From assembly GCF_039696035.1 (NCBI RefSeq), contig NZ_CP155567.1:2475001-2539000 (forward strand): a DNA stretch of 64,000 nucleotides, written 5' to 3'. The stretch is from Microbulbifer sp. SAOS-129_SWC. Its GTDB lineage: Bacteria > Pseudomonadota > Gammaproteobacteria > Pseudomonadales > Cellvibrionaceae. A program made the position numbers and the translations under genes. Under the pieces are notes generated by a model that did not search any database, was not told the origin of the DNA, and was given only the letters and a program-made list of their open reading frames with translations. Below, piece after piece: positions 44,500 to 55,707 of this stretch. Numbering within the stretch: position 1 is the first letter of the stretch; every line of letters starts with the position of its first letter.

Positions 44500-45237
44500 T
44501 CACTCTGCAGCGGCAAACAATTGCAGTGTTTCGTCCGCCAGCTGCGCGATGCTCAGGCCGCGCCCGCGGGGTTTGAACCAGCTGTGCGTGTGTATCAGCG
44601 CCCCCACTAACAGGCGCCGCAACAGCGCCGCATCGGCCCCGCGCCGCCCCGCCGCGGCCAGCACCTGGCACCAGTACGCCTCGTAGGCATCGCGCAGTTT
44701 CAATACCTGCTTCTGGCTGGCATCCGACAGGCTGCGCCACTCCACTACCAGCATGGAAAACCCGGGTACCGCCAGTCCGTGGATGGCCTCCAGCTCACAC
44801 AGAATACAGGCACGCAGCTGTTCCCGCGGCGACGACGCCCGCGCCACTGCGGAGACCATCCGCGCATGGGCGAAATGAATCACCTCGACCATCACATTGC
44901 GCAGTATGTCCTCCTTGCTGGAAAAGTGATGAAAGATGCTGCCGGAAAGAATCCCCACCTCGGAGGCGATATCCCGCACCGTGGTGCGCGCAAAGCCCTT
45001 CTGCTCGAACAGCCGTGCCGCTGCGTTGAGCAGGCGCCCGCGCGGCGCTTGTGGCGCGGTCAACACGCCCTCGGCTACCAGCGCGGCCATCAACTGTTCC
45101 GTTGCCGCGCCGGCACTTCCCACAGAGCGCGCGGCGCGCTCGGCGGCGGACAGCGACTCGGTATCGATATTTCCCGCGCGCTTGCCAGCGGCCCCCTTGA
45201 TAGCCGAACTCAAGGCAGCAGTATTCTTCGCGACCAC
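44500..45237 (-). CDS. atuR: TetR family repressor of the atu operon (AtuR-like)
   Basis: A 245-residue TetR-type regulator. The HTH is unusually far in (about residues 64-112: GRLLNAAARLFEQKGFARTTVRDIASEVGILSGSIFHHFSSKEDIL), after a roughly 60-residue Ala-rich extension. The GTG start at 45237 is supported by a strong AAGGGGG 8 nt upstream. It is divergent from atuB with an 18-bp palindromic operator between, and an identical operator sits upstream of the BKACE gene. The name rests on context; the ligand is probably a terpene-derived acyl-CoA. Confidence 0.85.
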   Translation of the reverse strand: MVAKNTAALSSAIKGAAGKRAGNIDTESLSAAERAARSVGSAGAATEQLMAALVAEGVLTAPQAPRGRLLNAAARLFEQKGFARTTVRDIASEVGILSGSIFHHFSSKEDILRNVMVEVIHFAHARMVSAVARASSPREQLRACILCELEAIHGLAVPGFSMLVVEWRSLSDASQKQVLKLRDAYEAYWCQVLAAAGRRGADAALLRRLLVGALIHTHSWFKPRGRGLSIAQLADETLQLFAAAE

Positions 45238-45282: not shown

Positions 45283-45300
45283 ACCAAGCGCTTGCTTGGT
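45283..45300. promoter_or_regulatory. AtuR/TetR operator 1
   Basis: ACCAAGC-GCTT-GCTTGGT, perfect 7-bp arms. It lies 46 bp from the repressor start and 72 bp from the atuB start. An identical 18-mer is at 55500-55517. Confidence 0.85.
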
Positions 45301-45371
45301 AGCGTTAGACCATTCTGCGCATTCAATGGCTGCGGCGCAAGCGCCGCCACAATAACAACGGAAGCGACACC

Positions 45372-46268
45372 ATGAGCTACCACAGCCAGCTGCGCCCGGG
45401 CAGCTTCGACGGCACCACCCAGATAGTCACCGGCGGCGGCAGCGGTATCGGCCGCTGTATCGCCCACGAGCTGGCGAGTCTCGGTGCCCACGTGGTGCTG
45501 CTCGGCCGCAGTGCCGACAAGCTGGCGACAGTGGCGGCGGAAATCCGCACCGACGGCGGCGCCTGCAGCGAGTACAGCCTGGATATCCGCGATGAGGAAG
45601 CGGTGCGCGAGACGGTGGCAGAGATAGTCCAGGCCCGCGGCGCGATTCACGGGCTGGTCAACAATGCCGGTGGCCAGTACCCGGCACCACTGGAGCAGAT
45701 TAACGCCAAGGGTTTCCAGGCGGTGTTCAACAGCAACCTGCTCGGCGGCTTCCTGATGGCGCGCGAGGCCTTCAGCCAGTCGATGAAAGAAACCGGCGGC
45801 AGTATCGTCAGTATCACCGCCGACAATTGCGGCGGCATGCCGATGATGGGCCACTCCGGCGCCGCCCGCGCCGGCATGGAAAACCTGACCCACACCGCCG
45901 CGGTGGAATGGGCCCGTTGCGGCGTGCGCGTCAATGCGGTGGCGCCGGGCTATATTCTCTCCAGCGGCTTTGACACCTACGACCCGGCCTTCCTGCGCGA
46001 ACTGTTGCCAGGCTTCCGCGACAGCATTCCGCTATACCGCCTCGGCGAAGAGGCGGAGATCAGCGGCGCCGTGTGTTTCCTGCTGTCGGACGCCGCCAGC
46101 TATATCACCGGCCAGGTGCTGCGCATCGACGGCGGCTCCAGCCTCAAGCACCACTCGCCGCTGTGGCAGCCGCCCGCCACGGCGCACAACCGCAAAACCT
46201 TTGACGGTTTCCACCGCCGCAACAAGCCGCAGGTGGTCGAGGAACTGGAAGCAGAGGGCAAACTCTGA
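45372..46268 (+). CDS. atuB: SDR-family oxidoreductase of the atu operon (AtuB-like)
   Basis: A 298-residue short-chain dehydrogenase-like protein. The NAD(P) motif TGGGSGIG and the NNAG motif are intact. In the active-site region the usual Ser is in SITADN, but the YxxxK motif reads HSGAAR (His for Tyr, Arg for Lys). Tyr loss is known in 2,4-dienoyl-CoA reductase-like SDRs, so it may act on an unsaturated acyl-CoA. First gene of the operon; its last base overlaps the atuC start. Confidence 0.85.
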   Translation: MSYHSQLRPGSFDGTTQIVTGGGSGIGRCIAHELASLGAHVVLLGRSADKLATVAAEIRTDGGACSEYSLDIRDEEAVRETVAEIVQARGAIHGLVNNAGGQYPAPLEQINAKGFQAVFNSNLLGGFLMAREAFSQSMKETGGSIVSITADNCGGMPMMGHSGAARAGMENLTHTAAVEWARCGVRVNAVAPGYILSSGFDTYDPAFLRELLPGFRDSIPLYRLGEEAEISGAVCFLLSDAASYITGQVLRIDGGSSLKHHSPLWQPPATAHNRKTFDGFHRRNKPQVVEELEAEGKL

Positions 46269-47896
46269 TGCAGCCCTTCGCAACGGAAGTGGATAGCAGC
46301 GCGGCCGAATTCAACGACAACCGCGCGGCCATGCTGGAAGCGATCGAGCGTTTCCGCAACGCGGAACGTTTACCCGCCGACGCCGAACAGGCCAAAGCCG
46401 CGCGCTACCGCGAGCGCGGCTGGCTGCTGCCACGCGAACGCCTGAACCGCCTGCTCGACCCCGGCGCGCCGTTTATCGAGCTGTGCGCCCTGGCCGGCTA
46501 CAAACTCTACGACGACCGCGACGGCAGCGGTGCCGGCGGCGGCGCCATCTGCGGTATCGGCCGTATTGGCGGTCGCCGCTGCCTGGTGCGCGTCGACAAC
46601 TATGCCGTGAAAGGCGGCACCATTTCCCCGGCGGGTATGGACAAGGCGCTGCGCATGCAGCAGATCGCGCTGGAAAACCGCCTGCCCATCGTCACCCTGG
46701 CGCAGAGTGGCGGCGCCAACCTGATGTACGCCAGTGAAACTTTCGCGCCCGGCGGGCGCGGCTTCGCCAACCAGGCGCGGATGTCGGCCGCGGGCATTCC
46801 GCAGATCACCGTGGTGCACGGCAGCGCGACTGCCGGCGGCGCCTACCAGCCAGGCCTGTCGGATTACGTGGTGATGGTGCGCGGCCAGAGCGGCATGTAC
46901 CTGGCCGGGCCGCCGCTACTGAAAGCGGCCACCGGCGAAATCGCCGATGCGGAAAGTCTCGGCGGCGCCGTGATGCACTGCCAGCAGGCCGGCAGTGGCG
47001 ACTATCTGGCGGAAGACGATGCCGACGGCATTCGCATCGCGCGCGAAATCGTCGCCAGCCTGCCGCCCCATCCCCAACAGTTACAACAGTCACCCTACTC
47101 CAGCGCTATCGGGGAATGGTGCGAGCCGCGCTATCCCGCTGACGACCTGCTGGGGCTGGTACCCGCGGACAGCAAGAAGCCCTACGACGTGCGCGAACTG
47201 CTCGCGCGCATCGCCGACGGCTCCGCGCTGCTGGATTTCAAGCCGGAGTTCGATCGCCAGACCTACTGCGGCCACCTGCGCATCGAGGGCCAGACCGTCG
47301 GTGCCATCGGCAACAACGGCCCCATCACACCCAAGGGCGCCAACAAAGCGGCGCAGTTTATCCAGCTGTGTGAACAGAGCGGCACGCCGCTGCTGTTCCT
47401 GCACAACACCACCGGCTTTATGGTCGGCACCGAGGTGGAGCAGCAGGGCATCATCAAGCACGGCTCGAAGATGATTCAGGCAGTGGCTAACGCCAGCGTA
47501 CCCAAGTTCAGCATCGTCGTCGGCGGCTCCTATGGTGCCGGCAACTACGCCATGTGCGGGCGCGGGTTCGATCCGCGCTTTATTTTCGCCTGGCCCAATT
47601 CCCGTACCGCAGTCATGGGCGCGGCCCAGGCCGGCAAGGTACTGCGCATTGTCAGCGAACAGAAGATGCAGCGCGCCGGCCAGGTGGACGAGGCAGCGCT
47701 GCAAAAGCTGGAAACCGACACCAGCGCATTTATGCAGGCCAGCTCCGATGCGCTGGCCTGCAGCGCGCGTCTGTGGGACGACGGCATTATCGATCCGCGC
47801 GACACGCGCCGGCTGCTGGGCATGCTGCTGGAAATCTGGCGCGAGGCAGAAGCGGCGACGCCGCGGCGCAACAGCTTCGGGGTTGCGCGCTTCTGA
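46268..47896 (+). CDS. atuC: Geranyl-CoA carboxylase carboxyltransferase (beta) subunit
   Basis: The 542-residue carboxyltransferase subunit that carboxylates geranyl-CoA with biotin supplied by AtuF. It reads GGSYGAGNYAMCGRGFDP and FAWPNSRTAVMGAAQAGKVL, the AtuC version, where methylcrotonyl-CoA carboxylase has a bulkier residue at the Gly after CGR. LFLHNTTGFMVGTEVEQQG is present. Start and order match P. aeruginosa atuC. Downstream there is a 177-bp gap filled with hairpins before atuD. Confidence 0.92.
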   Translation: MQPFATEVDSSAAEFNDNRAAMLEAIERFRNAERLPADAEQAKAARYRERGWLLPRERLNRLLDPGAPFIELCALAGYKLYDDRDGSGAGGGAICGIGRIGGRRCLVRVDNYAVKGGTISPAGMDKALRMQQIALENRLPIVTLAQSGGANLMYASETFAPGGRGFANQARMSAAGIPQITVVHGSATAGGAYQPGLSDYVVMVRGQSGMYLAGPPLLKAATGEIADAESLGGAVMHCQQAGSGDYLAEDDADGIRIAREIVASLPPHPQQLQQSPYSSAIGEWCEPRYPADDLLGLVPADSKKPYDVRELLARIADGSALLDFKPEFDRQTYCGHLRIEGQTVGAIGNNGPITPKGANKAAQFIQLCEQSGTPLLFLHNTTGFMVGTEVEQQGIIKHGSKMIQAVANASVPKFSIVVGGSYGAGNYAMCGRGFDPRFIFAWPNSRTAVMGAAQAGKVLRIVSEQKMQRAGQVDEAALQKLETDTSAFMQASSDALACSARLWDDGIIDPRDTRRLLGMLLEIWREAEAATPRRNSFGVARF

Positions 47897-47902
47897 TTTG
47901 TT

Positions 47903-48018
47903 ATTGAAAAGGCCCTCCCGGCCTTTTCAATCCGGGTTTGCGACGCTTGTCCGCAAACCCTCCACGACAAATCAAGCACTGCGTGCTCGATTTGCGGGTC
48001 CGGCCGTCCTGGCCGGAC
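47903..48018. repeat. Array of four consecutive stem-loops between atuC and atuD
   Basis: (1) 47903-47931, 12-bp perfect arms ATTGAAAAGGCC. (2) 47934-47960, 9-bp perfect arms GGGTTTGCG. (3) 47968-47994, 12-bp arms with one mismatch, CAAATCAAGCAC. (4) 47998-48018, 8-bp perfect arms GTCCGGCC with a 5-nt loop. They occupy nearly the whole spacer. Confidence 0.85.
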
Positions 48019-48073
48019 TGGCAAAGAGCAGCGGTCGATACAAATTCTCTTTAATAACGGCGGGATAAAAATA

Positions 48074-49240
48074 ATGTACCTCACCGACGAACACCGCGAA
48101 CTGCAGCGCACCGTGCGCAACTTCGTGCAGCAGGAAATCAATCCGTATATTCCCGAGTGGGAAGCGGCCGGTGCATTCCCCATCCGCGAGCTGTTCCGCA
48201 AGCTGGGCGACCTGGGCCTGCTCGGCATCAGCAAGCCCACCGAGTACGGCGGCCTGGGGCTGGACTTCAGCTACGAAACCGTGTTTCTGGAAGAGCTGGG
48301 CGCGGCCCACTGCGGCGGCGTGCCGCTGTCGATCGCCGTGCAGACTTCGATGTCGACGCCGGCGCTGGCCAATTTCGCCAGTGACGCACTGAAAGAAGAG
48401 TTTCTTGCCCCCGCCGTGCGCGGCGACATGATCGCCTCCATCGCCGTGTCCGAGCCCGGTGCCGGCTCCGATGTGGCCGGTGTCAAGACCCAGGCGGTGG
48501 CCGACGGTGACGACTATATCGTCAACGGCTCCAAGATGTGGATCACCAACGCCCCCAATGCAGACTTCTTCTGTACCCTGGTCAACACCGGCCCGGGCAA
48601 GCCGCACCGCAATAAATCCCTACTGGTTATTCCGGCGAATACGCCCGGCGTGCGCGTGGGCGAAAAGCTGAAAAAACTCGGCATGCGCTCCTCGGAAACC
48701 GCGCCGGTATTTTTCGATGATGTGCGTGTGCCGCAGCGTTTCCGCATCGGCAATGAGGGCGATGGTTTCCTGTTGCAGATGCTGCAGTTCCAGGAGGAGC
48801 GACTGGCCGGCGCTGCGCTGACGATCAAGGGGCTGGAAAACTGTGTCAGCACCACCATCGATTATGTTCGCGAGCGCCATGCGTTCGACGCACCGCTGCT
48901 CGACAACCAGGCAATCCATTTTTCACTGGCGGAAATGCAGACCGAGGTAGAGTGCCTGCGTGCACTCACCTGGCAGGCGGTGGAGGCCTATGTGCGCGGC
49001 GAGGATGTCACCACCCTCGCTTCCATGGCCAAACTGAAGGCCGGGCGCCTGTCGCGCAGCATTCCCGACCAGTGCCTGCAGTTCTGGGGCGGCATGGGCT
49101 ATATCGAGGAAACGTCGATCAACCGCGCCTACCGCGACAGCCGCCTGACGGCGATCGGCGGCGGCGCCGACGAGGTGATGCTCGGCATCATCTGCAAACT
49201 GATGGGCATACTGCCCGGCCGGCGCAAGACCGGCGCGTGA
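48074..49240 (+). CDS. atuD: Citronellyl-CoA dehydrogenase
   Basis: An FAD acyl-CoA dehydrogenase of 388 residues that converts citronellyl-CoA to geranyl-CoA. It has the FAD motifs ASIAVSEPGAGSDVAGVKT and SKMWITNAPNADF, and ends GADEVMLGIICKLMGILP, typical of the AtuD group. Fourth in the atuB-C-D-E-F order. The ribosome site is AACGGCGGGAT, weak; translation may depend on the upstream stem-loops. Confidence 0.9.
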   Translation: MYLTDEHRELQRTVRNFVQQEINPYIPEWEAAGAFPIRELFRKLGDLGLLGISKPTEYGGLGLDFSYETVFLEELGAAHCGGVPLSIAVQTSMSTPALANFASDALKEEFLAPAVRGDMIASIAVSEPGAGSDVAGVKTQAVADGDDYIVNGSKMWITNAPNADFFCTLVNTGPGKPHRNKSLLVIPANTPGVRVGEKLKKLGMRSSETAPVFFDDVRVPQRFRIGNEGDGFLLQMLQFQEERLAGAALTIKGLENCVSTTIDYVRERHAFDAPLLDNQAIHFSLAEMQTEVECLRALTWQAVEAYVRGEDVTTLASMAKLKAGRLSRSIPDQCLQFWGGMGYIEETSINRAYRDSRLTAIGGGADEVMLGIICKLMGILPGRRKTGA

Positions 49241-49251
49241 GGGCAGGAAAA

Positions 49252-50073
49252 ATGCAAACCCTGCTCATCGAAGACCGCGGCCACGCCCGCTGTATCACCC
49301 TGAACCGGCCGCAGCAGCGCAATGCAATGAGCCTGCAGATGGTGGAGGAACTGCTGCAGCAACTGGAGGCGGCGGAAACCGATAGAAACCTGCGCGCGCT
49401 GGTATTGCGCGGCAGCGGTGGCCACTTCTGTGCCGGCGGCGATATCGCCGATATGCTCAGTGCGCAGCAGCGGGCTGCCGACGGTGACAGCGATGCCTTC
49501 TATAACATGAACCGCCGCTTCGGCGAGCTGCTGTGCCGCTTCAACGATACCCACCTCGTAGTGATTGCCGCACTCGAAGGTGCGGTGATGGGCGGCGGTT
49601 TCGGTCTCGCCTGTATCGCCGACCTGTGCCTGGCCGCACACAGTGCGCGCTTCTCCCTGCCGGAAACCCGCCTGGGCCTGCCGCCGGCACAAATCGCCCC
49701 GTTTGTCGCCGCGCGCCTGGGCCAGTTCCAGGCCCGGCGCCTGGCTCTGGGCGGCCGCGCCATCGATGCCGCCGAGGCGGCGCGAATCGGCCTGGTGCAC
49801 CAGCTGGCCGACAACAGCGCCGACCTGGAAACAGCGCTCGACGAACAACTGCAGGCGATCCGCGCCTGCGCACCCGCCGCACTGGCCACCACCAAACAGT
49901 TACTGCGCAATACGGCCACTGCAAGTGATCGCGAGAGTCTCAGCAGCCTACTCGACAGCGCCGCACGGGATTTTGCCCGCGCGATCGCCGGCGAGGGCCG
50001 CGAGGGCGCGCAGGCGTTTATCGAGAAACGCCCGCCGGACTGGGACAAAGCACCGCAGGGGAAGCAGTCTTGA
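49252..50073 (+). CDS. atuE: Isohexenylglutaconyl-CoA hydratase
   Basis: A 273-residue enoyl-CoA hydratase/isomerase-family protein (crotonase fold). It has the HFCAGGDIADM oxyanion segment and EGAVMGGGFGLACIADLCLA. By position between atuD and atuF it should hydrate isohexenylglutaconyl-CoA. The ATG at 49252 follows AGGAAAA and lies 11 bp after atuD. It ends overlapping the first bases of an upstream TTG in the atuF frame. Confidence 0.9.
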   Translation: MQTLLIEDRGHARCITLNRPQQRNAMSLQMVEELLQQLEAAETDRNLRALVLRGSGGHFCAGGDIADMLSAQQRAADGDSDAFYNMNRRFGELLCRFNDTHLVVIAALEGAVMGGGFGLACIADLCLAAHSARFSLPETRLGLPPAQIAPFVAARLGQFQARRLALGGRAIDAAEAARIGLVHQLADNSADLETALDEQLQAIRACAPAALATTKQLLRNTATASDRESLSSLLDSAARDFARAIAGEGREGAQAFIEKRPPDWDKAPQGKQS

Positions 50074-50087
50074 GCAGGAAAACAGCC

Positions 50088-52076
50088 ATGAGCGAAACAA
50101 CAGCATCCGGCGAACGCCCCGCCCTACTGATCGCCAACCGCGGCGAAATTGCCGTGCGCATTGCGCACAGCGCCCGCGCCGAGGGCTACCGCACCATCGC
50201 CATCCACAGCGATGCCGACCGCGATGCTTTGCATGTGCAGGTCGCCGACAGCGCCGTCGCCATCGGCGGCAACACGCCGGCGGAATCCTACCTGGATATC
50301 GGCAAGGTCATCGCCGCCGCGCACCGCAGTGGCGCCACCGCCGTGCACCCGGGTTACGGCTTCCTGGCCGAGAACGCCGACTTTGCCCGCGCCTGTAGTG
50401 ATGCCGGCCTGCAGTTTGTCGGCCCGGCGGCGGAGGCCATCGAACTGATGGGCAACAAGCGCCGCGCCAAGGACTTTGTCGCCGCCGCCGGCGTCCCCTG
50501 CATTCCCGGTTTTCAGGGCAGCCAGGACGACGACGTATTGATCGAGGCGGCACAACAGATCGGTTTCCCGCTGATGATCAAGGCTGCCGCCGGCGGCGGT
50601 GGTCGCGGCATGCGCCTGGCCCACGATAGCAATGAATTGCCGGCGCAATTGCGCTCGGCGCGCAGCGAAGCGCAGAGCGCCTTCGGCAGCGGCGAGCTGA
50701 TTCTGGAAAAGGCATTGATCGACGCGCGCCATATCGAGATCCAGGTATTTGCCGATAACCTCGGCAACGCCATCCACCTGGGTGAGCGCGACTGCTCGAT
50801 TCAACGGCGCCACCAGAAAATCGTCGAGGAGTCCCCCTCCCCCGCTGTCGACCCGGCGCTGCGGGAAAGAATGGGCGCGGCTGCCGTGGCCGCCGCGCGC
50901 GCGTGCGATTACAGCGGCGCGGGCACGGTCGAGTTCCTGCTCGACGGCAACGGCGATTTCTATTTTTTGGAAATGAACACCCGCCTGCAGGTGGAACATC
51001 CAGTAACGGAAATGGTGACTGGGCTGGACCTGGTGGCGTGGCAACTGGCGGTGGCGCGCGGCGAGCCGCTGCCGATCACGCAGGAACAGGTACAGCAGCG
51101 CGGCCACGCCATCGAGGTGCGCCTCTACGCCGAAGACCCGGAGCAGCACTTCCTGCCACAGACCGGCGAGATACTGCACTGGCGCGCGCCGCAGGGCGAC
51201 GGCATCCGCATCGACCACGGCATTCGCGCGGGCTGCGCCGTTTCCCCCTACTACGATCCGATGCTGGGCAAGCTGATCGCCTGGGGCGACAACCGCGAAC
51301 AGGCGCGGCGGCGCCTGTGCGCGGCGCTGGAGCAGCTGGAATTGATCGGGCCGAAAAACAATCTGCCGTTCCTGCATCAGATTCTCGAGCATCCGCTGTT
51401 TTGCAGCGGCGGCGCCACCACCGCGTTTATCGAACAGGTCTTTCCCGATCTCAATCGCGACAATTCAGCGGCGCCAGCGGATGCGGAAACCCTGGCCACG
51501 GCCGCGGCGCTGCTGCACGAGGCCGGCCTGTCGGCAGCGGACCGCCGCAGCGGCCGCGCCAACTGGCGCAGCGACGACCACCGCCTGCCGTTCAACTACC
51601 GCTTACAGAACGGCGACGAAACCTACGAGTGCCTGCTGCACTGCGGCGGCGCTCACAGTTACCGTATCGCCGTTAATGAGGCGGCAATCGATGTGGAAAT
51701 CATCGACAGCGAGGCCGCCCTGCTGCGCATCGACGGCGCACAGCAGCGGCAACTGTACCGCCTGCACAACGGCACACTGCACCTGCCCCGCAACGGTTAT
51801 CAATGGCAGTTCCGCAATGCCACCCAGGCCCCGGCCAACCGCGGCAGTAGCGCCGGCAATGGCCGCATTACTGCGCCGATGGACGGCTGTATCGTCGAAG
51901 TACTGGTGCAGCCGCAACAGGCGGTAAAACACGGGGAAACGCTGGCGGTCATGGAGGCGATGAAAATGGAGCATCCGTTGAAAGCCGACCGCGATGGCAC
52001 TATCGCGACCATCGCTGCCGGCACCGGTGACCAGGTGCGCGGTGGGCAGCTGCTGGTGCAGATCGAGGCAGATTAG
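50088..52076 (+). CDS. atuF: Geranyl-CoA carboxylase biotin-containing (alpha) subunit
   Basis: A 662-residue acyl-CoA carboxylase alpha chain. The N-terminal biotin carboxylase domain (LLIANRGEIAVRI, KAAAGGGGRGMRLA, FLEMNTRLQVEHPVTE) is followed by a BT linker and a C-terminal biotinyl domain with MEAMKMEH (biotin Lys626). Pairs with AtuC. The ATG at 50088 is preferred over a TTG at 50070 because AGGAA lies just upstream. Last gene of the operon; 74 bp separates it from the convergent AGCS gene. Confidence 0.94.
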   Translation: MSETTASGERPALLIANRGEIAVRIAHSARAEGYRTIAIHSDADRDALHVQVADSAVAIGGNTPAESYLDIGKVIAAAHRSGATAVHPGYGFLAENADFARACSDAGLQFVGPAAEAIELMGNKRRAKDFVAAAGVPCIPGFQGSQDDDVLIEAAQQIGFPLMIKAAAGGGGRGMRLAHDSNELPAQLRSARSEAQSAFGSGELILEKALIDARHIEIQVFADNLGNAIHLGERDCSIQRRHQKIVEESPSPAVDPALRERMGAAAVAAARACDYSGAGTVEFLLDGNGDFYFLEMNTRLQVEHPVTEMVTGLDLVAWQLAVARGEPLPITQEQVQQRGHAIEVRLYAEDPEQHFLPQTGEILHWRAPQGDGIRIDHGIRAGCAVSPYYDPMLGKLIAWGDNREQARRRLCAALEQLELIGPKNNLPFLHQILEHPLFCSGGATTAFIEQVFPDLNRDNSAAPADAETLATAAALLHEAGLSAADRRSGRANWRSDDHRLPFNYRLQNGDETYECLLHCGGAHSYRIAVNEAAIDVEIIDSEAALLRIDGAQQRQLYRLHNGTLHLPRNGYQWQFRNATQAPANRGSSAGNGRITAPMDGCIVEVLVQPQQAVKHGETLAVMEAMKMEHPLKADRDGTIATIAAGTGDQVRGGQLLVQIEAD

Positions 52077-52149
52077 CCGGGATTACATTAAAGCTTTAGT
52101 GAGGAATGCAGAAAAGGGCATAGCCGCGGCACCCCTGCTTTGCATTCCA

Positions 52150-53628
52150 TCACGCGCCTCCCCCATCCCAAACATCGTGCTGCACCCCTTTGATATTGTA
52201 CTGGCGCGCATCAAACACCGGTTCCGCAATCCCCTTGGCCAGCTGCGCCTCGTAGTCACCGAGCACCTTGAACGCCACACCGGAGAGCAACAGTATCGCC
52301 AGCAGGTTGGCCGAAGCCATAAAGCCCATCGACATATCCGCCATGCTCCACAACAGCGCGAAGTTGTCCGATCGCCCGCTGGCGGCAATCCAGGCACCGA
52401 AGAGGATAAACAGGATATACAGCGCGCGGTAACAGAAGATCGAGGTGCGCGTATGCCAGAGGAAGAAGATATTGGTTTCCGCGTAGTAGTAGTTGGCGAT
52501 AATCGAGGTGAAGGCAAAAAACAGCAGCGCGATGGCCACAAAACTGCCGCCCCAGCTACCTACCTCGCTGGCTAGCGCGTCCTGGGTCAGTGTCACACCC
52601 TCCACGGTGCCCACGGAATGCATATCCGCCAGCAGAATGATCGACGCCGTGGCGGTGCAGATCAGGATGGTATCGAGAAATACCGAGGCCATCTGCACAT
52701 AGCCCTGGATGACCGGGTGCTTGACGTCCGCCACGGCACCGACGTTCGGCGACGAACCCATCCCCGCTTCGTTGGAAAACAGACCGCGCTTGATACCGTT
52801 GGCCACCACCGCACCAAAGGCCCCCGCTCCCGCCTGCTCCATACCAAAGGCATTGCCGAATATGTGCGCGAAAACCTGTGGCAACTCCCCCAGGTTGGTG
52901 AAAATTACATAGAGGGCAACCAGAATGTAGGCCAGCGCCATAAACGGCACCACGATGCCCGCGAAGCGGCCGATCGAGTGAATGCCGCCGAATACGATGA
53001 TCGCTGCCAGAATGGCCACCAGCGCGCCCACTAACAGCGGATTGATCCCCCAGGCGCCGTGGATCGCCGACGCCATCGCATTTGCCTGTACCGCGTTGAA
53101 GACAAAACCGAAACAGATCACCAGGAAAATGGAAAACAGCACCGACAGCCATTTCCAGTTATGCCCCAACCCCTTCTCGATGTAGTAGGCCGGCCCGCCG
53201 CGAAAGGTACCGTGTTCCTCGCCGCGCTCCTTGTAGACCTGCGCCAGGGTGTTTTCGACAAAGCTGGTGGCCATGCCCACCCAGGCCACGATCCACATCC
53301 AGAAGACTGCCCCCGGGCCGCCCGCGGTAATCGCCACCGCCACGCCGGCGATATTGCCGGTACCGACCCGCGCCGCAGCGCTGGTGGCAAAGGCCTCGAA
53401 GGACGACACCGAATCGCCGTGCTCCTTGCGCAGGCTCAGGCGCATTACGTGGAGCATATGGCCGAAGTGACGAAACTGGATAAAGCGGCTGTGCCAGGTG
53501 AAATAGAGCCCCGCCGGCAATAGTGCCACAATCAGGATGCCCAGCCACCAGAAGCCACCGAGTCCGCCCCAGGTGATCGCATTGCCCCAGTCGACAAAAT
53601 GCGCAAAGGTATCCAGAAAGCCCTGCAT
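52150..53628 (-). CDS. Sodium:alanine/glycine symporter (AGCS family)
   Basis: A 492-residue inner-membrane Na+-coupled amino acid transporter, about 10-11 helices. AGCS signatures: AARVGTGNIAGVAVAITAGGPGAVFWMW and GIKRGLFSNEAGMGSSPNVGAVADVKHP. The ATG at 53628 follows GGGAG; an upstream in-frame start has no ribosome site. No glycine riboswitch could be seen in the upstream region. Convergent with the atu operon; probably an independent unit. Confidence 0.94.
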   Translation of the reverse strand: MQGFLDTFAHFVDWGNAITWGGLGGFWWLGILIVALLPAGLYFTWHSRFIQFRHFGHMLHVMRLSLRKEHGDSVSSFEAFATSAAARVGTGNIAGVAVAITAGGPGAVFWMWIVAWVGMATSFVENTLAQVYKERGEEHGTFRGGPAYYIEKGLGHNWKWLSVLFSIFLVICFGFVFNAVQANAMASAIHGAWGINPLLVGALVAILAAIIVFGGIHSIGRFAGIVVPFMALAYILVALYVIFTNLGELPQVFAHIFGNAFGMEQAGAGAFGAVVANGIKRGLFSNEAGMGSSPNVGAVADVKHPVIQGYVQMASVFLDTILICTATASIILLADMHSVGTVEGVTLTQDALASEVGSWGGSFVAIALLFFAFTSIIANYYYAETNIFFLWHTRTSIFCYRALYILFILFGAWIAASGRSDNFALLWSMADMSMGFMASANLLAILLLSGVAFKVLGDYEAQLAKGIAEPVFDARQYNIKGVQHDVWDGGGA

Positions 53629-53940
53629 CGCCCGCTCCCGCACAGGCGCCTGCCGCGCAGACGCGGTTGGCGCAAAAAGTTGCCTGTGCAATAAAGACTA
53701 GCCGACAACCGGGCATGCGGAATAAAAGTACAGTGTCCCGGCGGTCGAAAAAACGCAACCGCTATCAATATGGGAAATTGAAGGCAAGTTTCACAAACCC
53801 TACTTCGCGTGGGATCCGACCAACCCTGCAGATGTCGTATTTTTCTTTTGTTGGCTATGCTGCATACAAGATCGCGATCGCGTCAGCGCCGGCGAACAAT
53901 TCAACAGCGAACTTCCTTGTGGACACTTCCAAGGCAGCTA

Positions 53941-54429
53941 ATGATGTACAGGTCAATTCGCGAAAACACTATCCGCAAGGCATATGGACACGAGTTTGCG
54001 ACCCTGTTTGCCTTAATCTCGATAGGAATCGTTGTGGCCACAACGATTGATGCGGTCCACGAAGTGCTCTTTCTGAAAGACATCTATGATTTCAACGCGA
54101 TCACGCAGATTTTCGTCAAGACCGTCAGTAATCTGGTTGTCGCCCTGACGATTTTCGAGCTGGCGTTAGTCATTGACTCGGAACTCTCGACGCCACACCC
54201 GACGGACGCGACGCGTTTTACCAACGAGTCATTGCGCCGCGGAGTGCCCCGGTTTATCGCTACCGTCGCCTGCGCGCTCGCCCTGGAAGGTCTGATCCTG
54301 ATCATAAAATACAATTCAGAGGGCGCTTATGACCGCATCTATATTGCCATCGCCGTTATCTTGAGCTCTGCGGCCCTCGTGGGGGCACTGGCGCTCTTTC
54401 TCAAGTTGCACAAACCTGAGCAGGCTTGA
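53941..54429 (+). CDS. Small four-helix membrane protein, unknown function
   Basis: 162 residues from tandem ATGs at 53941/53944 with AAGG upstream. Four hydrophobic segments: FATLFALISIGIVVATTI, VSNLVVALTIFELALVI, FIATVACALALEGLILII and IAIAVILSSAALVGALALF. Between the second and third is a short acidic loop, DSELSTPHPTDATRF. No recognised domain; it recalls stress-induced phosphate-starvation-type small membrane proteins, but I cannot name a family. It is divergent from the AGCS gene. Confidence 0.7.
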   Translation: MMYRSIRENTIRKAYGHEFATLFALISIGIVVATTIDAVHEVLFLKDIYDFNAITQIFVKTVSNLVVALTIFELALVIDSELSTPHPTDATRFTNESLRRGVPRFIATVACALALEGLILIIKYNSEGAYDRIYIAIAVILSSAALVGALALFLKLHKPEQA

Positions 54430-54565
54430 CCAATCCACGATGAACGGCCCCGTACATGCCGCACGAATGGTCGCCCGCTCGCGTGGACGAACATAAACCC
54501 GGGAAGGACAGTTTCCCAGCTAACATCCGGAGACTATGCGGGATAGGTGCCCGGACTACGCCGAC

Positions 54566-55420
54566 TCACAAAAACAGCTCGCGCGCACGCCCCGGCGACA
54601 CGACCTTACGCCCCGCTTCCTCAGCAATCCCGACCAGCGCCTCGATCAGCTGGCCATTGCCGCTGGTGCGCACGCCATCGGGCAGGTAGAAAGTGTCCTC
54701 GACGCCGCTGCGCAGGTGTCCGCCCAGCTCCGCCGTTTTGCGATGCACCGGCCAGATCTCCTCGCGACCGATCACCGTGCTCTGCCACAGCGCGCCGGGC
54801 TTCATGTACTTCGGCAACAGCTGCAGGAGTTCAGGATCCGCCGGCATGCCGGAGGCCACGCCCATCACCAGGTTGTAGTTGGGCGCGTCCACCATACCCA
54901 CATCGGCAAACATGCCCACCGAGCGCACGATGCCCAGGTCGAAACACTCAAACTCCGGCCGCGTACCGGTCTCGCGGCACACCGCCAGCAGCTCCTCGAC
55001 CTTGTCCACCGGATTCTCGAATACCATCGGCGGCCAGGCCCAGGTGCCGTTGGAGCGCGCCTTCAGATAATTGAGGCTACCCGCATTGCACGCGGCAATT
55101 TCCGGGCGCCCGGCGCGAATGCAATCCAACGGCCCCTGCTGATCGCGGCCAATGGTGCCGGTGGTGAAGTTCAGGATCACGCCGGGACAGGCCGCGCGGA
55201 TTTCATCCGCAATCGCCAGCGCCACCTGCGGATCCCAGCTGGGCAGATGGCCCTTGCCTTCCTCCTGGGCGCGGAAGTGAATATGCATCACCGAAGCGCC
55301 GGCGTCGTAGGCCTCGCGCGCCGACGCCGCCATTTGTTTTGGCGTCACCGGCACCGGATGTTGTTGCGGGTTGGTCAGCACGCCGGTCAGGGCGCAGGTA
55401 ATGACCACTTCATCAGACAT
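54566..55420 (-). CDS. BKACE (beta-keto acid cleavage enzyme, DUF849)
   Basis: A 284-residue Zn-dependent TIM-barrel enzyme that condenses a beta-keto acid with acetyl-CoA to give acetoacetate and a CoA ester. It has the family pattern VITCALTGVLTNPQQHP, VMHIHFRAQEEGKG (metal HxH), ILNFTTG, and FGMFADVG-like segments, and ends with the ELGGHLRSGVEDTFY motif (zinc Glu/His region). AGGAGA precedes the ATG. An AtuR operator 80 bp upstream puts it in the terpene regulon. Substrate unknown. Confidence 0.92.
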   Translation of the reverse strand: MSDEVVITCALTGVLTNPQQHPVPVTPKQMAASAREAYDAGASVMHIHFRAQEEGKGHLPSWDPQVALAIADEIRAACPGVILNFTTGTIGRDQQGPLDCIRAGRPEIAACNAGSLNYLKARSNGTWAWPPMVFENPVDKVEELLAVCRETGTRPEFECFDLGIVRSVGMFADVGMVDAPNYNLVMGVASGMPADPELLQLLPKYMKPGALWQSTVIGREEIWPVHRKTAELGGHLRSGVEDTFYLPDGVRTSGNGQLIEALVGIAEEAGRKVVSPGRARELFL

Positions 55421-55499
55421 GGACGCTTCTCCTGCATTATCTTTCTTGTGTCAGGCAATTCTTGCAGGCACCTCTTACAGGCAACCTATTGCGCCATTT

Positions 55500-55517
55500 A
55501 CCAAGCGCTTGCTTGGT
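55500..55517. promoter_or_regulatory. AtuR/TetR operator 2, upstream of BKACE
   Basis: ACCAAGC-GCTT-GCTTGGT, identical in all 18 positions to the site at 45283-45300. It lies 80 bp upstream of the BKACE start codon. Confidence 0.85.
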
Positions 55518-55596: not shown

Positions 55597-55707
55597 GTGA
55601 CGCTACCGGCTACCGCTTTGTGAGACTTTATGAGCCATGGATGGCGATTAAAGCCCCCAAGGATGGGTTCACGGCGTGTCTCACAAAGCGGCACCCGGTA
55701 GCGTCAC
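55597..55707. mobile_element. 111-bp MITE-like palindromic element with 30-bp terminal inverted repeats
   Basis: Arms 55597-55626 and 55678-55707 are complementary at 27 of 30 positions (outer 13 GTGACGCTACCGG, inner 14 CCGCTTTGTGAGAC). The 51-bp centre contains a GCCATGGATGGC-type segment and a GGATGGGTTCACGG stretch, which I recall as a common intergenic pattern in marine gammaproteobacteria (unverified). No transposase is present. Confidence 0.7.

Follow-up and report, generated by a model that had tools for sequence, protein, structure and literature searches.

The locus

The 64,000-nucleotide stretch of Microbulbifer sp. SAOS-129_SWC analysed here (contig NZ_CP155567.1; hereafter the window) carries a cluster that resembles the Atu genes of geraniol and citronellol degradation and, a short distance away, a gene of family PF05853, the beta-keto acid cleavage enzyme (BKACE/DUF849) family. 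In this strain and in many of its relatives the BKACE-type enzyme appears to be switched on together with the geraniol/citronellol genes. The features concerned are the following:

44500..45237, minus strand: TetR-family repressor, AtuR-like, with TetR_N and TetR_C_24 domains (GTG start as listed)
45283..45300, no strand: operator 1, ACCAAGCGCTTGCTTGGT, between divergent atuR and atuB; contains the 13-mer CCAAGCGCTTGCT
45372..46268, plus strand: short-chain dehydrogenase (SDR), atuB homologue (adh_short_C2)
46268..47896, plus strand: carboxyltransferase beta subunit, geranyl-CoA carboxylase type (atuC), from its score against 5ikl and its pocket glycine
48074..49240, plus strand: acyl-CoA dehydrogenase (atuD), from Pfam
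49252..50073, plus strand: enoyl-CoA hydratase family (atuE), ECH_1 in frame 48952-50073, start approximate
50088..52076, plus strand: biotin carboxylase/biotin carboxyl carrier protein alpha subunit (atuF), start taken as the first ATG of frame 50070-52076
54566..55420, minus strand: PF05853 (BKACE/DUF849) protein, terpene-linked subfamily, 267.5 bits against a cut-off of 24.8
55500..55517, no strand: operator 2, exact second copy, 79 bp upstream of the PF05853 ATG (55420, minus strand); Microbulbifer-conserved

Two operators in one chromosome

The 18-mer ACCAAGCGCTTGCTTGGT is present without mismatch at 45283-45300 and 55500-55517, and no third copy with up to 3 mismatches was found in the window (shuffled sequences give a mean of 0.05). 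These two are also the only exact matches in the chromosome, a single contig of 4,634,464 bases that contains the window; the next-best matches have 3 mismatches and lie at 4 places, against 1 match for the backwards control. The earlier note had reported the 18-mer twice, between atuR and atuB and about 80 bp upstream of a BKACE gene, and had proposed a genome-wide search: both positions stand, with a distance of 79 bp, and the search of 4.63 Mb bears it out. The 18-mer is a 7-4-7 inverted repeat, ACCAAGC-N4-GCTTGGT, whose palindrome form ACCAAGCNNNNGCTTGGT is likewise exact only at the two operator places chromosome-wide, with 0 places at 1 mismatch and 10 at 2 mismatches, compared with 9 for the backwards control. 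A chance repeat was rejected on these counts in window and chromosome, for the 18-mer and palindrome forms alike.

Operator 1 is flanked by the TetR gene, which is on the minus strand with 45237 as its listed start, and by the SDR gene, which starts at 45372. In Pseudomonas aeruginosa the AtuR-binding sites are the 13-bp repeats AGCAAGCGCTTGG and CCAAGCGCTTGCT (PMC9973270). The second of these is contained in the 18-mer and the first in its reverse complement. The Pseudomonas atuR/atuABCDEFGH system resembles the window in having the TetR gene next to the operon, in the order and sequence of atuB-C-D-E-F and in the recognition-helix pattern of its TetR, and the identical 18-mer is found in 12 of 12 fetched Pseudomonas loci of family f3. 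It differs in that the window's genome has a PF05853 gene with its own operator copy, and AtuA (PF07287) was not found there by a profile search that was positive in 51 of 79 genomes. Because of this missing AtuA the window cluster, whose gene order B-C-D-E-F matches that of the Atu cluster, is described as an Atu-like variant.

The operator is conserved upstream of PF05853 genes

Relatives of the PF05853 protein were followed in the best 80 of at least 547 loci confirmed in the genome collection, 79 of which have enough upstream DNA for the operator to be counted. In 34 of the 79 the palindrome lies within 300 bp upstream of the gene with 0-1 mismatch (26 exact). Among 16,485 random 300-bp windows from the same loci there were 23 exact sites, some of which are expected to be other operators of those loci, none with 1 mismatch and 9 with 2. 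All 34 palindrome-bearing loci fall within L016-L053 (L numbers denote loci and G numbers genomes), from gammaproteobacteria or Rhodobacter-type alphaproteobacteria; in L054-L095, where the gene mostly follows atuF, no palindrome was found upstream of it. Across 15 Microbulbifer PF05853 promoters (the window and 14 loci) the column majority is 99.5% in the half-sites and 77% in the 4-bp spacer, compared with 52% and 39% in the 50-bp flanks.

A palindrome search of 64 genomes returned sites in 33, with 1-4 per genome, while the backwards control matched in 1 genome. In M. variabilis and Exilibacterium a distance of 48 and 33 kb, respectively, separates the site of the atu operon from that of the PF05853 gene, and 16 of the 39 AtuA-type loci fetched have the exact 18-mer between the TetR gene and AtuA. 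Among 22 TetR proteins chosen for comparison, the 17 that carry GxxSGSxFHH in the recognition-helix region all come from loci with a site (0-1 mismatch), and the remaining five, from loci without one, have FYH or FYY there. The PF05853 gene thus very probably belongs to an AtuR-type regulon, as the earlier note had proposed; what now speaks for this is the genome-wide count, the conservation of both promoters in relatives even where they lie far apart, the match to the published AtuR repeats and the fusion of the gene into the operon in other lineages.

Two side observations concern the extent of the regulon. In four loci (L279, L282, L285 and L286, from G662, G431, G336 and G465) an acyl-CoA dehydrogenase gene, with 35-39% identity of its product to AtuD, has the palindrome directly upstream, suggesting that the regulon has an additional member; in other genomes (L187, L274 and L275) a gene of this kind comes after atuF. 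G096 has two exact operators about 50 kb apart (L283, L284), near which a search for TetR, AtuA-F, BKACE and LiuE found none of these.

The PF05853 gene travels with the atu genes

AtuC (at least 50% identity) is encoded in 54 of the 80 PF05853 loci and AtuC or AtuF in 62; the other 18 have neither in the fetched stretch, some of these being short contigs. An atuF gene lies upstream on the same strand in 39 loci, and in 35 of these the tblastn ends of the two genes are 11-61 nt apart. Among 17 genomes sampled through AtuC that have the PF05853 gene, 15 have it no more than 5.1 kb from atuC and on the atuC strand; the exceptions are the window's own genome (about 6.7 kb, opposite strands) and another of the same genus (different contigs). 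The gene occurs in three arrangements, as a separate gene with its own operator, as the first gene of the operon and as the last, and these are spread over gamma-, alpha- and betaproteobacteria. In Pseudoteredinibacter (L039) and in G524 the order is TetR<-site->PF05853-B-C-D-E-F followed by an SDR gene, with an AMP-ligase gene after it in L039. In Pseudomonas-type genomes it is TetR<-site->AtuA-B-C-D-E-F, in keeping with the published order atuABCDEFGH (PMC4847356). The order in L039 and G524 is thus the Pseudomonas order with AtuA replaced by the PF05853 gene.

The PF05853 gene and AtuA nearly exclude each other

The relation to AtuA was followed in 58 genomes with a geranyl-CoA-carboxylase-like gene, 52 found among 397 genomes of the phylum (AtuC E <=1e-155) and 6 among 276 genomes of the class. 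Seventeen of them have a PF05853 protein 61-100% identical to that of the window. Strong PF07287 matches (E below 1e-100) are present in only 2 of these 17 compared with 40 of the 41 genomes that lack the PF05853 gene, and the two exceptions are single-domain proteins without the AtuA_ferredoxin domain; if only PF07287 open frames of at least 590 residues are counted, the figures are 0 of 17 and 37 of 41. Fisher's exact test for the exchange gives p = 7e-11, uncorrected for kinship. In a tree built on AtuC from 57 of the 58 genomes (all but G389), the label has to change 6 times, with well-supported branches forcing at least 4 of these changes, and in four independent pairs none changes the same way, with a mean of 3.9 changing in opposite ways. 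G396 (L206) has a geranyl-CoA-carboxylase-like operon with weak PF07287 matches only and no PF05853 match at E 1e-20.

The PF05853 gene and AtuA nearly exclude each other, and this exchange, which the earlier note did not see, is the stronger part of the finding. The two proteins, PF07287 plus PF23544 in AtuA and PF05853 in the other, belong to different Pfam families and yet share the operon slot, the upstream operator and a near-complementary occurrence; the PF05853 enzyme probably fills the same pathway slot as AtuA. The near-exclusive exchange also supports the suggestion of the earlier note that the BKACE acts on a pathway intermediate. AtuA itself has no relative in the PDB by sequence at E 0.1, its AlphaFold model is poor (predicted local distance difference test, pLDDT, 49.5), and its relatives among the matches listed (120 of 7999) are close copies only, with at least 83% identity.

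A distinct subfamily of PF05853

Among the matches listed, the closest relatives of the window's PF05853 protein are from Microbulbifer. Within the 58 sampled genomes, members of the subfamily are at least 61% identical to it, and other PF05853 proteins at most 37%. All 97 members compared keep the metal ligands His, His and Glu, together with the Arg and Asp positions; for these we presume the residue numbering of Kce. We also take the Kce structures 2y7d-g to be those of beta-keto acid cleavage enzymes of PF05853/DUF849 (Bastard et al., 2014). GVLT is present in 97 of 97 members, and a WAWPP-type loop in 95 of 97 but in 0 of 14 other PF05853 paralogues. Kce has Tyr145 and Glu14, the former being the Tyr of characterised BKACEs that is implicated in canonical catalysis (PMC12871164), whereas all 97 members of the subfamily have Phe and Leu at these positions. 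Phe also stands at the Tyr145 position in 10 of the 14 other paralogues, so that its value as a diagnostic sign is doubtful. The sequence-defined group, with its GVLT and WAWPP-type loop, provides candidates for re-annotation.

The genome has a second PF05853 gene (C1:1240441-1241304), whose product is of the same Pfam family and 37% identical to that of the window. It lies beside dehydrogenase-like and AraC-like frames (read by eye), a context that we take to be carnitine-like, with no listed operator place nearby. A carnitine-type BKACE was rejected for the window gene; it is the second copy that looks carnitine-like.

A candidate pathway and its alternatives

From the sites, their conservation, the gene association, the exchange and the metal-site residues, all of them read from sequence, we infer repressor binding, induction, an inducer, a substrate and a reaction. 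Together these would make up a two-site AtuR-type regulon and a variant acyclic-terpene pathway in which the PF05853 enzyme does the job of AtuA, a reading that we favour on balance. The TetR/AtuR protein, bound to ACCAAGC-N4-GCTTGGT, would repress atuBCDEF and also, by way of the other copy at a distance of 10 kb, the PF05853 gene, and a pathway acyl-CoA would presumably release it. Geranyl-CoA carboxylase and AtuE would make 3-hydroxy-3-isohexenylglutaryl-CoA. The chemistry of 3-hydroxy-3-methylglutaryl-CoA (HMG-CoA) lyase on this compound would yield acetyl-CoA and free 7-methyl-3-oxo-6-octenoate, and in the proposed pathway HMG-CoA lyase (LiuE) would carry out this split. The PF05853 enzyme would then convert 7-methyl-3-oxo-6-octenoate and acetyl-CoA into 5-methyl-4-hexenoyl-CoA and acetoacetate, the shortened CoA ester being gained without ATP-dependent activation and thiolysis. 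This exact reaction, the likeliest one in our view, is put forward tentatively, with our confidence just short of even. As the lyase products are the two kinds of BKACE substrate, the scheme would account for an enzyme of free acids within a pathway of CoA esters and also, provided that AtuA handles this compound as well, for its ability to stand in for AtuA. The BKACE reaction as described is that of a beta-keto acid with acetyl-CoA to acetoacetate and an acyl-CoA (PMC12871164). The earlier note had the lyase produce a beta-keto acyl-CoA and acetoacetate, which is wrong as written: acetoacetate would be the product of the BKACE, and it arises neither in the lyase step set out above nor in the published cleavage, which gives acetate and a beta-keto acyl-CoA (PMC4097962).

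A number of observations weigh against a shared regulon with replacement of AtuA, for which, moreover, all the support, for regulon and enzyme role alike, is computational. Promoter scans found no sigma-70-like promoter around either operator. Two close relatives, L029 (83%) and L047 (70%), have no site and no atu genes in the fetched stretch. Weak PF07287 matches occur in two further of the 17 genomes (E ~1e-8 and ~1e-7), the sign test on the four pairs has a median p of 0.125, the pairs being too few for significance, and only 27 of the 39 AtuA-type loci have AtuA and atuC together in one fetched stretch. In strain 42_54_T18 (G663; L277, L287) AtuA and the PF05853 gene each have an operator upstream, apparently a natural case of both enzymes under one regulator. 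Strong PF07287 matches are found in 4 of the 21 genomes reached through the PF05853 gene, that strain among them; these and the 18 loci without AtuC or AtuF would fit a gene that is merely carried along, its copied operator due to chance or hitch-hiking and its association devoid of shared function. We regard this as highly improbable given that the operator is kept while its flanks diverge, that the three arrangements extend over three proteobacterial classes and that the gene is exchanged with AtuA. The regulon and the exchange would hold equally if the growth substrate were another beta-methyl-branched or isoprenoid acid instead of a C10 terpenol. That alternative differs from the proposed mechanism in the side chain only, so that their probabilities overlap, and although unlikely it has to be reckoned with seriously: an atu-like dmg cluster of Pseudomonas nitroreducens is linked to degradation of the diffusible signal factor (DSF) fatty-acid signal (PMC9973270), a literature search gave no apparent report of Microbulbifer growth on geraniol, and atuG and atuH are missing beside the window cluster. 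Against it stands AtuC, whose type is that of geranyl-CoA carboxylase and whose pocket has the glycine described in the literature.

The remaining alternatives concern the chemistry. An HMG-CoA lyase homologue is present in 15 of the 17 carboxylase genomes with the PF05853 gene, and no HMG-CoA-lyase-sized protein was found in the other 2 (G278, G325), nor in G344, G096 and G023 (with AtuA; 3 of 20 AtuA-type or other carboxylase genomes); the LiuE step therefore cannot be universal. This, like the missing Tyr, counts against the proposed chemistry, and both leave room for the PF05853 enzyme and AtuA to take the hydroxyacyl-CoA directly. In that case 3-hydroxy-3-isohexenylglutaryl-CoA would be cleaved by the PF05853 enzyme, as by AtuA, in a retro-aldol step followed perhaps by an acyl transfer. 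Such a step is conceivable on a BKACE-type metal site because a beta-keto acid and acetyl-CoA, the usual substrates of a BKACE, have this hydroxyacyl-CoA as their aldol adduct. Direct cleavage nevertheless seems distinctly unlikely to us, as the reported BKACE chemistry needs a beta-keto acid with acetyl-CoA, the lyase step is given to LiuE in a review (PMC4097962) and the homologue is there in those 15 genomes. Its fullest form, in which one BKACE-fold enzyme couples the retro-aldol reaction to a same-site exchange yielding acetoacetate and 5-methyl-4-hexenoyl-CoA and takes the place of HMG-CoA lyase as well as AtuA, is improbable; were it true, AtuA would be an unrelated enzyme for the same conversion. 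The Phe in place of the catalytic Tyr also raises the prospect of a regulon member with non-canonical chemistry, for instance removal of a side product or an acetyl transfer in which no C-C bond is cut, as in BsfD, a protein with Phe at this position and no BKACE reaction (PMC12871164). We consider this decidedly improbable, since most of the other paralogues (activities unverified) share the Phe, and it is hard to see what catabolic use such chemistry would have here, yet the gene is kept across classes.

The variant Atu pathway bears on a contradiction in the literature, where the role of AtuA and the cleavage of the skeleton after carboxylation are described differently: PMC4847356 has AtuA carry out the lyase step, whereas PMC4097962 names LiuE. 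A second family in the place of AtuA, with the same operator and position and with known family chemistry, provides a concrete and testable proposal for this step. The new element appears to be the near-exclusion of PF05853 and AtuA, and the system would be better named a variant Atu pathway in which the PF05853 enzyme replaces AtuA, as it seems mostly to do. In the literature searched, mostly without subscription journals, we found no link between BKACE and terpene catabolism and no description of such a replacement, and a prior mention is possible. A paper on an Acidovorax avenae tetR cluster that names geranyl-CoA was set aside, the available text concerning a different cluster.

Other features of the window

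AtuC scores 793 bits against the geranyl-CoA carboxylase beta subunit 5ikl and 493 bits against the methylcrotonyl-CoA carboxylase beta subunit 3u9r, the typing being made on the beta subunit only. In the alignment AtuC has Gly at the position that the literature gives for selectivity (residue numbers in the chain record are one lower than in the paper), where glycine opens the carboxyltransferase pocket for geranyl-CoA (PMC4673880). A leucine/isovalerate cluster was rejected, AtuC being much nearer geranyl-CoA carboxylase and a methylcrotonyl-CoA-carboxylase-type beta gene (C1:455370, 45% identity) and the HMG-CoA lyase homologue lying elsewhere. This homologue, the genome's one HMG-CoA-lyase-sized PF00682 protein, is encoded at 460357, 3.4 kb from that beta gene and immediately behind a frame read by eye as biotin-carboxylase-type.

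The window's AtuB is 54-60% identical to the product of the gene between atuA and atuC in 17 AtuA-type loci (L188-L196, L198-L205), and its TetR has the same two domains as, and 51% identity to, the TetR beside atuA in a Pseudomonas-type genome (L188). TetR_N begins only at residue 69 of the TetR frame, and because about 68 residues precede the DNA-binding domain the gene probably starts further in than listed. The atuF product comprises Biotin_carb_N, CPSase_L_D2, Biotin_carb_C, Biotin_lipoyl and BT_MCC_alpha domains. No atuG or atuH was found beside the window's atu operon; between atuF and the PF05853 gene lies a Na/alanine symporter gene on the other strand. A 30-nt inverted repeat, a 14-nt piece of which has no other occurrence in the window at up to 1 mismatch, has arms at 55597-55626 and 55678-55707 that are 93% complementary, with 51 nt between them, and sits between the PF05853 promoter and a prolyl-oligopeptidase-type gene.

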